This document shows, one piece after another, positions 12,369 through 61,497 of a DNA stretch of 64,000 nt. Source of the stretch: Acidobacteriota bacterium (GTDB taxonomy: Bacteria; Acidobacteriota; UBA6911); contig JAISUT010000064.1 of NCBI GenBank assembly GCA_031271905.1, positions 1 to 64,000 of the forward strand. Reading direction: 5' to 3'. The notes beneath the pieces were generated by a model. That model was given only the letters and a program-made list of their open reading frames with translations, was not told the DNA's origin and made no database searches. The first letter of the stretch is position 1; each line of letters starts with the position of its first letter. A program made the translations under genes and the position numbers.

Positions 12369-12490
12369 GGGCGCCTCTAAAAGCCCGCAGACAAGGCGTC
12401 GCCGCAGGTCGAAAAGCGGAGTTCGCTGAGGCGAATGGGCGTTTCCGCCCAAGGCGCGACGCAGCGTCCAGGTTTTCCAGAGGTTCACCC
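12369..12490 (-). repeat. Dispersed palindromic element, copy 3 (long form, orientation B)
   Basis: gggcgcctctaaaagcccgcagacaaggcgtcgccgcaggtcgaaaagcgg...aggcgcgacgcagcgtccaggttttccagaggttcaccc. Confidence 0.9.
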
Positions 12491-29517: not shown

Positions 29518-31404
29518 CTAAAATGCGTCAGTCCTGCGCGGGCCTTGCGCGTAGTCCTCGGCGCTCCGCCCCTTGATGAAGTCGCCCGTGGACATCTCCT
29601 TGTAGCTCGCCCCCGGGAAGACCATCGGGTAGACCTCCGCGTCCGGGTCGATGACGACCTCCAGGAACGCCGCCCCCTCGAAGGCTATGAACCGCTCCAG
29701 CGCCTCGCGCAACCGCCCCTGGTCCTCCAACCGCTCGGCGAAGCCGAATCCGTCCGCCTGCGCCGCCTTGACGAAATCCTTCCGCCGCAGGGTCTTGTCC
29801 GAGCCGGAGAAGCGGTTGTCGAAAAACAGCTTCTGCCACTGCCGCACCATGCCGTCGGCGTGGTTGTTCAGCAACAGCACCTTGACCGGCAGGCCGTAGG
29901 TGGTGGCGGTCTCCAGCTCGCCGATGTTCATGCGCATGCTGCCGTCGCCGTCCACGTCGATCACCAACCGGTCGGGGAACGCCGCCTGCGCGCCGATGGC
30001 CGCCGGAAGGCCGAAGCCCATCGTCCCCATCGAGCCGGAGGTGAGGAAAAGGCGCGGCGCCTTGAAGTCGAGGTACTGCGCCGCCCACATCTGGTGCTGC
30101 CCCACGCCGGTGGCGACGATGGCGTCGCCCTTGCCCGCCGCGGCGCCTTTGACGACTTCGTTCAGGCATTCCAGCACCTGTTGCGGCTGGATGGCTCGGC
30201 TGGAGCGGTCGTAGCCCCGGGCATGCTTCTCGCGCAGCTTGCGGACGTGCTCCAGCCAGGGGGAGAAATCCTTGTCGAAGCCTTCCTTGCGCGCCGCCAG
30301 CTCGGCGAAGGCGTCGCCCGCGTCGCCCACGTGCGCCCAAGAGACCTGCTTGACCTTGCCGATCTCGGCGGCGTCGATGTCGATGTGCGCGATGTATCTC
30401 GCGTTGGGCGCGAACTCCTGCACCTTGCCCGCCACGCGGTCGTCGAAGCGCGCCCCCGCCACGAGCAGGAAGTCGCAGTCGGTCACGGCGTAGTTGGCGT
30501 ACGCCATGCCGTGCATCCCCAGCATCTGCAAAGACAGGTCGGACGTGGTGTCCACCGCGCCGATGCCCATCAGGGTCGTGACCACGGGGATGCCGAACGC
30601 CTCGGCGAAGCGGCGCAACTGCGGCGCGCCGCCGCCCAGGATGACGCCGCCGCCGGCGCAGACGAGCGGACGCTCCGACTTGCGCAGCATGCCGAGCAGC
30701 TCCGCGCACTCGGCGTCGGACAGCTTCGCCGACGCCAGCCGCTTCATGCGGGTCTCGTAGCCGCGGAAGCGGACGGTGCCGCCCCCCTTGAAAACGCCCT
30801 CCCAGTTCTGCACGTCCTTGGGGACGTCGATGACCACGGGGCCGGGACGCCCGCTGCGGGCGATCTCGAAGGCGGTGCGCACGACGGACTCCAGCTCCTC
30901 GGGACGCTCCACCAGGAAGACGTGCTTGGCGCAGGCGCTCATCAGGTTGAACACCGGCGCCTCCTGGAAGGCGTCGGTGCCGATGGCGGCGCGCGCCACC
31001 TGCCCGCATATCAGCACGACCGGGATCGAGTCCGCCATGCAGTCGCGGATGGGGGTGACGCTGTTGGTGGCCGCCGGCCCCGACGTGACGACGAAGACGC
31101 CGACCTTGCCGCTCGAGCGGGCGTAGCCCGCCGCCATGAATCCCGCCCCCTGCTCGTTGGCGGGGATGATCAACTGCATCTGCTTGTCGCGGCGCGCCTC
31201 CCGCTCGGCGTTATACCTGAAGATCGCGTCAAAGACCGGCAGGATGGCCCCGCCCGTGTACCCGAACACGGTGTCAGTCCCCTCCTCGGCCAGCACTTGG
31301 ACGATCATCTCCGCGCCGGTCATGCGCCTGCCGGCCAGGGGATGCGGTTGTCTATCGGTTTGAGTGTTTGCATCTGCCATTTCCTGCTCCTGTGTCATGT
31401 TCAC
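29518..31404 (-). CDS. ilvB: Acetolactate synthase large subunit
   Basis: GAEMIVQVLAEEGTDTVFGYTGGAILPVFDAI, GVFVVTSGPAATNSVTPI, TPP-binding VIDVDGDGSMRMNIGELETATTYGLPVKVLLLNN. Confidence 0.95.
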   Translation of the reverse strand: MNMTQEQEMADANTQTDRQPHPLAGRRMTGAEMIVQVLAEEGTDTVFGYTGGAILPVFDAIFRYNAEREARRDKQMQLIIPANEQGAGFMAAGYARSSGKVGVFVVTSGPAATNSVTPIRDCMADSIPVVLICGQVARAAIGTDAFQEAPVFNLMSACAKHVFLVERPEELESVVRTAFEIARSGRPGPVVIDVPKDVQNWEGVFKGGGTVRFRGYETRMKRLASAKLSDAECAELLGMLRKSERPLVCAGGGVILGGGAPQLRRFAEAFGIPVVTTLMGIGAVDTTSDLSLQMLGMHGMAYANYAVTDCDFLLVAGARFDDRVAGKVQEFAPNARYIAHIDIDAAEIGKVKQVSWAHVGDAGDAFAELAARKEGFDKDFSPWLEHVRKLREKHARGYDRSSRAIQPQQVLECLNEVVKGAAAGKGDAIVATGVGQHQMWAAQYLDFKAPRLFLTSGSMGTMGFGLPAAIGAQAAFPDRLVIDVDGDGSMRMNIGELETATTYGLPVKVLLLNNHADGMVRQWQKLFFDNRFSGSDKTLRRKDFVKAAQADGFGFAERLEDQGRLREALERFIAFEGAAFLEVVIDPDAEVYPMVFPGASYKEMSTGDFIKGRSAEDYAQGPRRTDAF

Positions 31405-31413
31405 GTTTCGGGG

Positions 31414-31992
31414 TCAGCGCGACGCCTCGACGGGGTCTTCCTCGACCACGGTCTCCGGGGCGAACCGCGAGTGCAGGTTGCGGCGCAGGGCGACCTGGCC
31501 GGTGCGCACCATCTCGTCGATGCCGTAGGGGCGGACGACGTCGAGGAACGCCTCGATCTTGCCGCTGTCGCCGGTGACCTCGAAGACGTAGTTCTCCGGC
31601 GTCGCCGTGACGACGCGCGCCCGGAATATCTCCGCCTCGGTCAGCAGGGAGGTGCGCCGCCCCTCCTTGGCGTGGACGCGCACCAGCACCAGCTCGCGCT
31701 CCACGCAGTTGGTGTCGGTCAAGTCGGCGGCCTCCACCGCGTTGGGGAGCTTCTCGACCTGCCGCAGGATCTGCTGCGCCAAAAGCGGCTCGCAACGCAC
31801 CACCATCGTGATGCGGGAAAGCGTGGAGTCGGCGGTGCGGGCGACGGTCAGGCTCTCGATGTTGTAGCCCCGGGCGCTGAAAAGCCCGGCGATGCGCGAC
31901 AGCACGCCGAAGCGGTTCTCCACGAGGATGGAAAGCGTCCGCGTGCTTTCGAGCGGATCTGTTTTTTCAACGAATGGGATGGCGCTCGCCAT
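31414..31992 (-). CDS. ilvN: Acetolactate synthase small (regulatory) subunit
   Basis: ACT domain TLSILVENRFGVLSRIAGLFSARGYNIESLTVARTADSTLSRITMVV. Confidence 0.95.
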   Translation of the reverse strand: MASAIPFVEKTDPLESTRTLSILVENRFGVLSRIAGLFSARGYNIESLTVARTADSTLSRITMVVRCEPLLAQQILRQVEKLPNAVEAADLTDTNCVERELVLVRVHAKEGRRTSLLTEAEIFRARVVTATPENYVFEVTGDSGKIEAFLDVVRPYGIDEMVRTGQVALRRNLHSRFAPETVVEEDPVEASR

Positions 31993-32037
31993 GTCAGACC
32001 TCCTGTGTCCCGGCATTGTCCCGGCACATGAACATAA

Positions 32038-32157
32038 GGGAACATCTAAAGCCCCGGACGCTGCGCCGCGCCTTGGTCGAAAATGCTCATTCGCCTCGGC
32101 GAACCCCGCTTTTCGACCTGCGGCGACGCCATGCCTGCGAGTTTTTTAGAGGTTCCC
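32038..32157 (+). repeat. Dispersed palindromic element, copy 7 (long form, orientation A), between ilv attenuator and ilvN
   Basis: gggaacatctaaagccccggacgctgcgccgcgccttggtcgaaaatgctcattcgcctcggcgaaccccgcttttcgacctgcggcgacgcc...gaggttccc. Confidence 0.95.
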
Positions 32158-32159
32158 AT

Positions 32160-32191
32160 AAAAAAAGCCGTCGTCCGGTTTGGGCGACGGC
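32160..32191 (-). terminator. Attenuator terminator of the ilv leader
   Basis: Minus strand GCCGTCG-loop-CGACGGC followed by T7. Confidence 0.85.
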
Positions 32192-32219
32192 CTCCCTCCC
32201 CTGCATTGGGGGTTTGCCG

Positions 32220-32339
32220 TCATCCGAACCGTGCCACGGTAAGGACGTCGATGTTGATGACGGATACGATGGCGACGGCGGACAGGGCGGCGCCGTCGGG
32301 GGTGATGTTGCCGATAAACCGCGAATTCGCCGTGTGCAT
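32220..32339 (-). CDS. Putative ilv leader peptide (39 aa): MHTANSRFIGNITPDGAALSAVAIVSVINIDVLTVARFG
   Basis: SD-like GGAAGGA upstream of ATG; cluster of Val/Ile/Leu codons just before the stop; followed by mutually exclusive stem segments and a rho-independent terminator, then ilvN-ilvB. Confidence 0.8.
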   Translation of the reverse strand: MHTANSRFIGNITPDGAALSAVAIVSVINIDVLTVARFG

Positions 32340-32402
32340 GTCCGTCCTTCCGCCTCTTCCCTTGCGCCCGCCCTCGCCTCGCCGCACAAAAAATACGGTC
32401 AA

Positions 32403-32430
32403 ATCGTAACAAGGTGTATTGTTTTGTCAA
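32403..32430 (-). promoter_or_regulatory. Putative sigma70 promoter of ilv leader-ilvNB
   Basis: Minus strand TTGACA-N16-TACGAT. Confidence 0.6.
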
Positions 32431-32458
32431 TGGGGTTTGGGAAATTTGAGGGGAGGGC

Positions 32459-33400
32459 GTGATGGAAGGCGCGGGGAAGACGATGCGATCCGAGGGTGTT
32501 CCCGGGGGGCGCCCCGAAAACCCGGGGGAGGGGCTGAGGGAGGCGTGGCGGCGGCACGAGCGGCGCTGGCGGGGCCACCGCTTCGTCTACGCCGTGGTCT
32601 CGCGGCGCAGCCGGGGCGTCTCGGTCGGCGTGAACCTCTCGCCGGGGAAGGCGTGCAACTTCGGCTGCGCCTACTGCCAGGTGAAGCGCCCTGCGCCTCC
32701 CGCGCAAGCCATGCCGGGGCGGGAGGCGCAGGTGGACGAGGTCGTGCTCGCGCAGGAGCTGGACGGCATCCTGCAAGCCGAACGCGACGGCTCGCTCTAT
32801 GGCGAGCCCCCGTTCGACGCGCTGCCGGCGGCGGGACGGGGGGTGCGCGACATCGCCTTCTCCGGCGACGGCGAGCCGACGGCGTATCCCGGCTTCGGGC
32901 GGGTCGTGGACATCGCCGCCGCCGCGCGGGCGCGCCACGGCCTGAGCGACGCGAAACTGGTCTTGATCACCAACGCCGCCTACCTGGGCGAGCCCGCCGT
33001 GCGCGACGCGCTGGAGGTGCTGGACGCGAACAACGGCGAGGTCTGGGCGAAATTGGACGCCGGGACGGAAGGGTACTTCCGCAAGGTCAACCGCGCCGCC
33101 GCGTCGCTCGACGGGATATTGGGGAACATCCTGGGGGCGGCGCGCCGCCGTCCGGTGGTGATCCAGACGCTGTGGATGCGCCTCGACGGGGACGCCCCGC
33201 CGCCGGGGGAGGTCGAAAGCTACTGCGGGCGGTTGCAGGCGTTGCTCGACGCCGGCGGGCGGCTGAAGGCGATCCAGCTCCACACCGTCGCCAGGGCTCC
33301 GGCGGAAGGCTATGTCGCGCCGCTGACCGGCGCGGAGATGGAGGGCGTCGCCAACCTCGTGCGCGCGCGCCTCCCCGTCCCGGTGGAGCTGTTCGCTTGA
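32459..33400 (+). CDS. Radical SAM protein
   Basis: CNFGCAYCQVKRP CX3CX2C cluster motif; FSGDGEPTAYPGF; 313 aa. Confidence 0.85.
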   Translation: MMEGAGKTMRSEGVPGGRPENPGEGLREAWRRHERRWRGHRFVYAVVSRRSRGVSVGVNLSPGKACNFGCAYCQVKRPAPPAQAMPGREAQVDEVVLAQELDGILQAERDGSLYGEPPFDALPAAGRGVRDIAFSGDGEPTAYPGFGRVVDIAAAARARHGLSDAKLVLITNAAYLGEPAVRDALEVLDANNGEVWAKLDAGTEGYFRKVNRAAASLDGILGNILGAARRRPVVIQTLWMRLDGDAPPPGEVESYCGRLQALLDAGGRLKAIQLHTVARAPAEGYVAPLTGAEMEGVANLVRARLPVPVELFA

Positions 33401-33405
33401 GCGGC

Positions 33406-34575
33406 CTACGCCTCGGGCGGCTCCGGCGACACCGCAGGCTGCGGGGCGGGGGCGGCCTTGGGCGGGGGCGTCGCCGACGGCAGGGGGGCGCTGTAGCTGA
33501 TGCGCGTCGGGTAGGCGATCTCCGCGCCGTGCGCCGCGATGATGTCGGCGATCTTCAGCAACACGTCCTGCTTGACCTCGTGGAAGCGCACCCAGACCGT
33601 GGTGCGGGTGAAGGTGTAGACCATGATGTCGAGCGAGAACTCGTTGAACTGCAGGAAATTCACGATCAGCGTCTGCGACTGGTCGATCTCCGGGTGCGCC
33701 ATCAGCATGGCGCGGATGTCGGAGACGATGCCCGCCACCTCGCCGATGTCGTCGTAGCGCACGCCGATGGTCTCGTTGATGCGGCGGTTGGTCATGCGCG
33801 AGGGGTTCTCCACCGTGATGGTGGTGAACACGGAGTTGGGCACGTACAGCGGGCGCTTGTCGAAGGTGCGGATGCGCGTGACGCGCCAGCCGATCTCCTC
33901 GACCGTCCCCTCGATCTGCTTGTCGGGCGAGCGCACCCAGTCGCCGACCGCGAACGGGCGGTCGAGGTGGATCATCAGTCCGCCGAAAAAGTTGGCGAGC
34001 ATGTCTTTCGCCGCCAAGCCCACCGCCAAGCCGCCGACGCCGCCGAGGGCCAGCACGCTGCCGAGCGGGACGTGCAGGCTTTGCAGGCACAGGAGGCTGG
34101 CGACGACGATGACCACTATGCGCAAAAGCTGGGTGATGCCGTCTGCGGCGGTGCGGTCTACCGGCGCCCCGAGGGCTTCCTTCCTCTTGAGGAAGGCGAC
34201 CTTCGCGTTCTGGATCAGCCGCACCAGGAACCAGGTGATGCAGAAGAACACGCCGATGGTGCGGATGGCGGGGACGGCGTTCGGCAACGGCTGGGAGATC
34301 ACGTCGGCGCCCCGGACGACGTCGAGCACGAACGTGGCGCCGAGCACCCACGCCAGCCACGAGACGGGGTGGCGGAGCGCCGAGAACAGCACGTCGTCCC
34401 ATATCGCGGGGGTCTTTTCCGCCCCTTTCGCCAAACGCGCCAAGACGCGGCGCAGGACGAAATTGACGGCGATGACCGCCAACAGGATGCCGGCGGCCTT
34501 CACGGCGAGCACGGCGAGCGCCGCAGAGCCTCCGTCGACGCCATGTTGTTGCAACCAGTCCAAGAGTAACTTCAT
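33406..34575 (-). CDS. MscS-family mechanosensitive ion channel
   Basis: LALGGVGGLAVGLAAKDMLANFFGGLMIHLDRPFAVGDWVRSPDKQIEGTVEEIGWRVTRIRTFDKRPLYVPNSVF. Confidence 0.93.
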   Translation of the reverse strand: MKLLLDWLQQHGVDGGSAALAVLAVKAAGILLAVIAVNFVLRRVLARLAKGAEKTPAIWDDVLFSALRHPVSWLAWVLGATFVLDVVRGADVISQPLPNAVPAIRTIGVFFCITWFLVRLIQNAKVAFLKRKEALGAPVDRTAADGITQLLRIVVIVVASLLCLQSLHVPLGSVLALGGVGGLAVGLAAKDMLANFFGGLMIHLDRPFAVGDWVRSPDKQIEGTVEEIGWRVTRIRTFDKRPLYVPNSVFTTITVENPSRMTNRRINETIGVRYDDIGEVAGIVSDIRAMLMAHPEIDQSQTLIVNFLQFNEFSLDIMVYTFTRTTVWVRFHEVKQDVLLKIADIIAAHGAEIAYPTRISYSAPLPSATPPPKAAPAPQPAVSPEPPEA

Positions 34576-53326: not shown

Positions 53327-53448
53327 GGGAGCTTCTAAAAGGCCCGCAGGCAAGGCGTCGCCGCAGGTCGAAAAGCGGGGCCCGTCAAGGCGAATGGGCG
53401 TTTTCGACCAAGGCGCCGGCGACGCCGGCCGGGTTTTTCAGAGGTTTC
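53327..53448 (-). repeat. Dispersed palindromic element, copy 8 (long form, orientation B)
   Basis: gggagcttctaaaaggcccgcaggcaaggcgtcgccgcaggtcgaaaagcggggcccgtcaaggcgaatgggcgttttcgaccaaggcg...gaggtttc. Confidence 0.93.
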
Positions 53449-56889: not shown

Positions 56890-57010
56890 GGGAGCCTCTA
56901 AAGAACTCGCCGACAAGGCGTCGCCGCAGGTCGAAAAGCGGAGTTTGCCAGGGCGAATGGGCATTTCCGACCAAGGCGCAACGCAGCGTCCGGGGTTTTT
57001 AGAGGTCCCC
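56890..57010 (-). repeat. Dispersed palindromic element, copy 10 (long form, orientation B), inside the tolC-MFP-RND operon
   Basis: gggagcctctaaagaactcgccgacaaggcgtcgccgcaggtcgaaaagcggagtttgccagggcgaatgggcatttccgaccaaggcgcaacgcagcgtccggggtttttagaggtcccc. Confidence 0.95.
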
Positions 57011-61300: not shown

Positions 61301-61444
61301 ACATCCACGCTCTTGACGCTCATCGTCGTGCCGGTGGCATACTCGCTGCTCGACGACCTGACCGCGCGGCTGTTCAAGGGAACCTCTAAAGACCTCGCCG
61401 ACAAGGCGTCGCCGCAGGTCGGAAAGCAGGGTTCGCCGAGGTAA
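58301..61444 (+). CDS. RND efflux pump permease (AcrB/MexB/CzcA superfamily)
   Basis: VKQPVFATMMMVALVVLGIFSYRELSVDLFPDVDLPVVTVQTTYPGVAPETVE..., twelve-TM RND architecture; C-terminal ~21 aa encoded by dispersed repeat. Confidence 0.96.
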   Translation: MVLSDLSVKQPVFATMMMVALVVLGIFSYRELSVDLFPDVDLPVVTVQTTYPGVAPETVETEVTKRIEEAINPIEGVKHITSTTTEGISVVVTEFELGTDIHTAAQDVRSKVSALRRDFPAGVDEPVIDRMDPGDLPVISLSVASPELTHKELTSLTEKVVKKRLENIEGVGSVKIIGGQRREIEVYLDPARLKTYGLTVPEVVQALASENIEIPAGKVQGAAVEELVRVEGKAVAPEDFDALIVKNIQGVPIRLGEVARVEDGYEEQRTLALDRGERALALEIRKQSGGNTVDVAESVKAEIPRLNQELPGGARLGIVKDSSQFIRESVDDVQSTLVLGALFTVFIVYLFLNSWRSTVITGLTLPVSIISSFIVMGIMDFSLNILTLLGLSLSVGLLIDDAIVVRENIVRHMQFGKDHFEAAREGTSEIGLAVMATTFSIIAVFVPIAFMKGIVGRFFFEFGITVAFAVMVSLFVSFTMDPMLSSRWYDPATEAGAERRGLSRLLEAFDRRFVELGGVYEKVIAAALRHRLLVVGAAALFFAGGLAVFGSLGQEFMPGYDRGEFQVSFKAASGNTIEQTEAIANEIAAAVAAKPGVDYVFTTIGAGESAAINEGSVYVKLKDKGARALTDDELRGGLRRDLASYGRAITSIEDVPDLGDARPVQLSVQGPDMAVLDELSAEVVDAIAGVPGAVDLDRSLDRDKPELLARIDRRVASDLGVNLQTLAVTLRALLNGEVATQFEDEDGDAYDVRVRLDAADRRSLDALLGIDIPSSKKDAAGRDIRIPIGQVAEFTRGSSLAQIRHMDLAREVRVFANTYGRPMGDVEADIQKALDEKVLFPPGYSARFTGDAEEMNSTFGYIYEALVLAVIFIYLILASQFGSFTHPLAIMLALPLSLIGVAVILLLTRDTLNIMSMIGLILLMGLVTKNAILLIDYANRRRREGMERTAALVEAGKTRFRPIIMTTLAMIFGMLPLAFEIGAGSELRSPMARSVIGGLITSTLLTLIVVPVAYSLLDDLTARLFKGTSKDLADKASPQVGKQGSPR

Positions 61445-61497
61445 ATGGGCATTTTCGACCAAGGCGCAACGCGGCGTCCGGGGTTCCCAGGGGTTCC
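61378..61497 (-). repeat. Dispersed palindromic element, copy 11 (long form, orientation B), overlaps 3' end of RND permease gene
   Basis: gggaacctctaaagacctcgccgacaaggcgtcgccgcaggtcggaaagcagggttcgccgaggtaaatgggcattttcgaccaaggcgcaacgcggcgtccggggttcccaggggttcc. Confidence 0.95.

Follow-up and report, generated by a model that had tools for sequence, protein, structure and literature searches.

The Leader and the Genes It Precedes

Does the short ORF upstream of ilvN set the expression of the acetolactate synthase genes? The first-pass annotation proposed ribosome-mediated attenuation of ilvN-ilvB on the minus strand of the window (the whole 64,000 nt stretch of Acidobacteriota DNA analysed here). 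Very probably, the locus is a ribosome-mediated transcription attenuator of the classic type, in which the supply of charged Ile- and Val-tRNA determines the expression of ilvN-ilvB. The proposal is supported by conservation in relatives, by terminator pairs that have changed on both sides, and by modelled fold switching.

The large subunit of acetolactate synthase, ilvB (29518-31404), is over the cut-off for NCBIfam TIGR00118 (642.8 bits), and the small subunit, ilvN (31414-31992), for PRK11895 and TIGR00119. Both lie on the minus strand, as do all features of the leader. The start of ilvN is most likely the ATG at 31992, which follows GGAGG, and not 32016. A sigma-70-like promoter with an extended -10 TG, TTGACA-N16-TACGAT, is present at 32430-32403 as had been claimed. 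It is the sole promoter-like site in 31000-33500, where 0.2 would be expected by chance, and relatives keep the TTGACA and a TA...T hexamer. The leader peptide ORF (32339-32220), with the translation originally given, has 39 codons, MHTANSRFIGNITPDGAALSAVAIVSVINIDVLTVARFG, from the ATG at 32339 to the TGA at 32222-32220, and is preceded by a plausible ribosome-binding site. A run of Ile/Val control codons, recognized by codon composition and from the relatives, extends from Val22 to Val35 (32276-32235). Eight Ile/Val codons fall within 15 leader codons; when the leader bases were shuffled 20,000 times, this density was never reached. We also scanned both strands of the 64 kb for ORFs of 12-70 aa with at least 8 of 15 residues being I, L, or V, followed by a stable hairpin and a T-run. 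The ilvN leader was the sole match, and no match came up in 40 dinucleotide-shuffled windows.

A MITE-like interspersed repeat of about 120 bp (32157-32038, minus strand) sits between the T-tract of the attenuator and ilvN. The repeat ends in GGGAACCTCTAAAAA...CTTTAGATGTTCCC and has TTAT flanks. Further copies are found in the window at 22100-22011, 55241-55156, 56890-56995, 61378-61483, 12386-12469, and 53345-53416. At least 40 copies occur in the window's genome, and none turned up in nine further genomes of the genus.

RNA Arms of the Leader

The first-pass annotation placed segment 1 in the Ala-Val-Ala codons, at a 9-mer GCCGTCGCC that is repeated in segment 3. Identical copies are indeed present at 32279-32271 and 32191-32183, but the 9-mer is not conserved as such, and the alignment of relatives rules it out as a conserved segment 1. 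RNAalifold on ten sequences recovers the 3:4 terminator and a 1:2 helix of 9 bp that instead uses CGTCCTTACCG (32247-32237, in the Val-Leu-Thr codons), paired with CGGTTCGGATG (32231-32221). We have corrected segment 1 accordingly. Near the segment 1 first proposed, CCGTCATC (32263-32256) is complementary over 8 bp to GATGACGG of segment 2, and a by-eye likeness to it can be seen in most relatives. It is a possible second segment 1 and may act as a second competitor for segment 2.

Segment 2, CGGTTCGGATGACGGC (32231-32216), includes the leader stop codon, and its CGGTTCGGATGA is invariant in all ten sequences. The GACGGC first named as segment 2 is present at the stop codon (32221-32216), but the 2:3 antiterminator is not a 6 bp pairing; it spans 15 positions. 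In the window it is formed by GGTTCGGATGACGGC and GCCGTCGCCCAAACC, with 13 positions paired and two mismatches. Segment 3, GCCGTCGCCCAAACC (32191-32177), can pair either in this way with segment 2 or with segment 4. Between segments 2 and 3, a small spacer hairpin CCCCCAATGCAGGGG (32212-32198) has a CTGGG...CCAG-type counterpart in most relatives. Segment 4, GGACGACGGC (32176-32167), is the 3′ arm of the intrinsic terminator. It contains the CGACGGC (32173-32167) of the original description, followed, as also described, by a T7 tract (32166-32160), and a T-run is found in all relatives. A standard terminator scan did not detect this terminator because its loop exceeds the length that the tool permits. 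The folding energy of the whole leader is not unusual (z -1.16).

Conservation in Relatives

We searched for the ilvN protein in 60 related genomes and in 15 of the family. The region upstream of ilvN was readable in ten genomes, of which nine belong to the genus and one to a sister genus, and in one of these (L005) the sequence starts inside the leader. Besides the window's own genome, the leader is present in nine others. Another genome of the genus (G002) has only an ilvN fragment at a contig edge. No ilvN match was found in genus g2 (two genomes) or in one g4 genome, and the other g4 genome (L025) has a distant ilvN behind ilvB, without this leader. The first-pass annotation had looked to relatives for conservation of the leader and its stems, and the ORF, antiterminator, terminator, and T-run are present in every readable one. 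The leader end, segments 1-4, and the T-run are kept in 10/10 leaders, and the complete leaders are all Ile/Val-rich and all end in RFG*. In the aligned leaders, pairing is kept in 97.8% of cells for 1:2, 92.7% for the 15 positions of 2:3 (GGTTCGGATGAYGGC : GCCGTCAYCCGAACC), and 99% for 3:4, and falls to at most 60% when the arms are slid by 1-3 columns. The covariation also looked for was found in part: among the ten sequences, two terminator pairs have changed on both sides, and none in 1:2 or 2:3 have. Covariation is thin, as there is very little variation in the arms of these sequences. The N-terminal half of the leader peptide is not conserved. The last three sense codons do not vary at any of their nine nucleotides, synonymous positions included, which points to constraint on the RNA.

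A covariance model of the ilvN leader (R1) had no match outside the family among 38 genomes of the class, and none in 12 distantly related genomes (at most 55% identity, to a Rokubacteria protein, among the matches listed). In other families of the class (L011, L012, L013, L015, L016), ilvN has an Ile/Val-rich leader with different arms: GGTTCTTTGCGGAG, CTCCGTAAAGAACC, and a later TTCTT..ACGGAG, with a last hairpin that lacks a T-run. The sequence CTCCGTAAAGAA is invariant in five sequences of these leaders, which R1 does not find as such.

Leader Peptides Match the Downstream Pathway

The strongest argument for ribosome-mediated attenuation is the match between the amino acids of the leader and the gene that follows. 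In nine ilvN leaders, I makes up 11.7% and V 15.0%, against 5.0 and 6.0 after shuffling, an excess of about 2-2.5-fold. In five relatives, R1 also matched the region ahead of a cimA-like gene. Since CimA serves the threonine-independent route to isoleucine, Ile is a fitting signal for this gene. In a search with the TIGR00977 family, ten genomes had a cimA that passed the cut-off, and upstream sequence was available for nine of them, the window's own included. All nine upstream regions contain an Ile-rich leader, a stop codon adjoining GGCGG, and a terminator, and the terminators carry T-runs. These leaders are 23.6% I (shuffled 3.2%), 2.1% V, and 0.5% L. In the window's own genome (G000 contig C9, L171 1317-1433) the cimA leader, MMKSFEITGIAIAGKPPGG*, contains Ile but no Val or Leu, and is accompanied by a terminator.

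A leuA-like gene in eight relatives (L173, L174, L177, L179, L182, L183, L184, L185) is preceded by a Leu-rich leader ORF (L 25.1%; shuffled 13.0%). We found no obvious U-tract terminator after these ORFs, and the leuA of the window's own genome (L178) has no Leu-rich leader ORF before it. The genes ilvC and ilvD encode shared later steps of the pathway. They were set aside as additional attenuated genes after the upstream sequence that was read showed no attenuator.

Proposed Mechanism and Modelled Fold Switching

In the mechanism that we propose, RNA polymerase would transcribe the leader while a ribosome follows on the 39-codon ORF. With ample Ile and Val, the ribosome would reach and cover the TGA inside segment 2; segments 3 and 4 would then pair, and the terminator would end transcription near 32160. 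With Ile or Val short, the ribosome would stall on the late Ile/Val codons and cover segment 1, leaving segment 2 free to pair with segment 3 (over as many as 15 positions) ahead of the synthesis of segment 4, and allowing read-through into ilvN-ilvB. If the leader were not translated, segment 2 could be tied up in the 1:2 helix, so that 3:4 forms. The analysis demonstrates the sequence elements, their conservation, the match in amino acids, and the fold switching in silico; we infer that the leader is translated, that termination occurs, and that the switch responds to starvation.

To model the switch, the ribosome was placed codon by codon, with 12 nt from the A site covered, in calculations that are of equilibrium and not of kinetics. 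All 9/9 complete ilvN leaders show a zone of ribosome positions, from the late Ile/Val codons to roughly the conserved Leu-Thr, in which the antiterminator is the equilibrium fold; with the ribosome at the last codons and stop, it is the terminator. The earlier claim that a ribosome on the late Ile/Val codons favours 2:3 is thus borne out in models of the alternative structures for the nine ilvN leaders. As long as segment 4 is absent, 2:3 pairing forms when the ribosome is upstream, and the probability that segment 3 is held by upstream RNA falls towards the stop in all nine. The fall is shallow in the window (0.4, 0.3, and 0.3 at R37, F38, and G39; 0.6 at the stop). In the nine cimA leaders, the hold on segment 3 before segment 4 falls near the stop to differing degrees. 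At equilibrium, most cimA leaders favour the terminator for nearly all ribosome positions, and in the models most of them depend on 2:3 forming first. With no ribosome on the window's leader, omitting the U-tract tips the equilibrium to the antiterminator (P(anti) 0.88), and including it tips the equilibrium to the terminator. Thus, the default state rests on the order of folding.

Attenuation and Other Forms of Control

The locus has the features of a trp/his/ilv-type attenuator. A promoter and a predicted translatable ORF are found in the window and in relatives, the control codons match the product of the downstream genes (ilvNB and cimA; leuA in relatives), and an intrinsic terminator precedes the first gene. 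The antiterminator and the 1:2 helix are mutually exclusive and conserved, without double-sided changes, and in silico the position of the ribosome switches the fold of nine ilvN leaders.

The switch could instead act mainly at another level, through translation coupling, Rho, or a general slowing of translation. The Leu-rich leuA leaders without an obvious U-tract terminator would fit such control, and changes to the regulatory codons of Streptomyces coelicolor ilvB were without effect (PMC1262725), which suggests control of this sort for that leader. In every readable genome, however, the ilvN leader has the 1:2, 2:3, and 3:4 arms along with a T-run, and T-runs also mark the terminators of the cimA leaders. 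We regard control mainly at another level as very improbable.

Elsewhere in bacteria, ilv operons use T-boxes. A ppGpp riboswitch controls ilv operons in other bacteria (PMC10272879), and a terminator with an alternative fold, as present here, could in principle be controlled by a T-box or a small-molecule riboswitch, in which case the ORF would be incidental. However, no T-box and no Rfam riboswitch or leader family matched at gathering score anywhere in the window, and a permissive Rfam search of the leader gave chance-level matches only. The absent Rfam match speaks against a T-box or riboswitch identity for the leader. The enrichment of Ile/Val, Ile, or Leu tracks each downstream gene, which would be unexpected of an incidental ORF, and we give this explanation very little weight. 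Least credible of all is that the ORF, with its plausible ribosome-binding site and conserved position, encodes a functional small protein and that the terminator merely insulates or tunes ilvN, since the N-terminal half is unconserved, the DNA of the C-terminal RFG, invariant even synonymously, is the antiterminator arm, and the composition of the peptide tracks the pathway of the next gene.

Relation to Known Attenuators

Ribosome-mediated attenuation of this kind has close parallels. In Escherichia coli, the ivbL and ilvL attenuators combine a branched-chain-rich leader with alternative antiterminator and terminator hairpins, and acetolactate synthase genes lie downstream. The locus resembles E. 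coli ilvB (ivbL) and ilvGMEDA (ilvL) in all of these respects and differs, by description, in the ilvN-ilvB gene order, the Ile + Val leader, and the stop inside segment 2. The E. coli ilvB and ilvGMEDA operons are both listed as attenuator operons (PMC1183508). Corynebacterium ilvBNC (the ilvB-II motif) has a branched-chain-rich uORF with a predicted terminator and antiterminator, and reporter work supports attenuation (PMC10272879). The window likewise has a branched-chain-rich leader with both predicted structures before acetolactate synthase genes, but it belongs to another lineage and is without an Rfam match. The ilvB-OMG motif (various phyla) and the Leptospira ilvB motif have been reinterpreted as attenuators with uORFs rich in branched-chain amino acids and threonine (PMC10272879). 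The leader described here is likewise a predicted leader-ORF attenuator, set apart from these by the absent Rfam match. Actinobacterial ilvB leaders also carry branched-chain codons (Ile/Val/Leu), with a mode of action called unclear, and in the same phylum leuS is a classical candidate attenuator and leuA has a pseudoknot LEU element (PMC1262725). The arms of the window's ilvN leader, in comparison to the actinobacterial ilvB leaders, are complete.

Leader-peptide attenuation of ilvB is known in E. coli and Corynebacterium and has been proposed to be common (PMC10272879; PMC1183508), and the state of knowledge on attenuation across phyla was set out in 2010 (PMC2965389). The kind of mechanism is therefore already known, while the sequence family and lineage appear to be new because no Rfam family matches. 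We did not find an Ile-only leader before cimA in the literature searched, which was of limited coverage.

Possible Kinship of the ilvN and cimA Attenuators

A model built on the cimA leaders alone (R2) matches 9/9 complete ilvN leaders at full length, with scores from 38.3 down to 21.3 bits, the window being the weakest. In the other direction, R1 matches five cimA leaders at full length with 31.6-34.5 bits. Since partial or antisense matches of bare terminator arms already score up to 26 bits, the full-length scores exceed those of a bare terminator by little, and the window's score does not exceed them. Shared descent of the ilvN and cimA attenuators is suggested by these sequence matches. 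We would tentatively entertain, as something close to an even possibility though short of it, that one ancestral attenuator was duplicated and its control codons retuned between Ile + Val (ilvNB) and Ile alone (cimA), giving an amino-acid-matched set in one lineage.

Through these leaders, a little-studied lineage that is without an Rfam model gains complete predicted leader-peptide attenuators for both ilvNB and cimA. If the two attenuators are duplicates, they would serve as a natural test case for the retuning of control codons when a new gene comes under their control.
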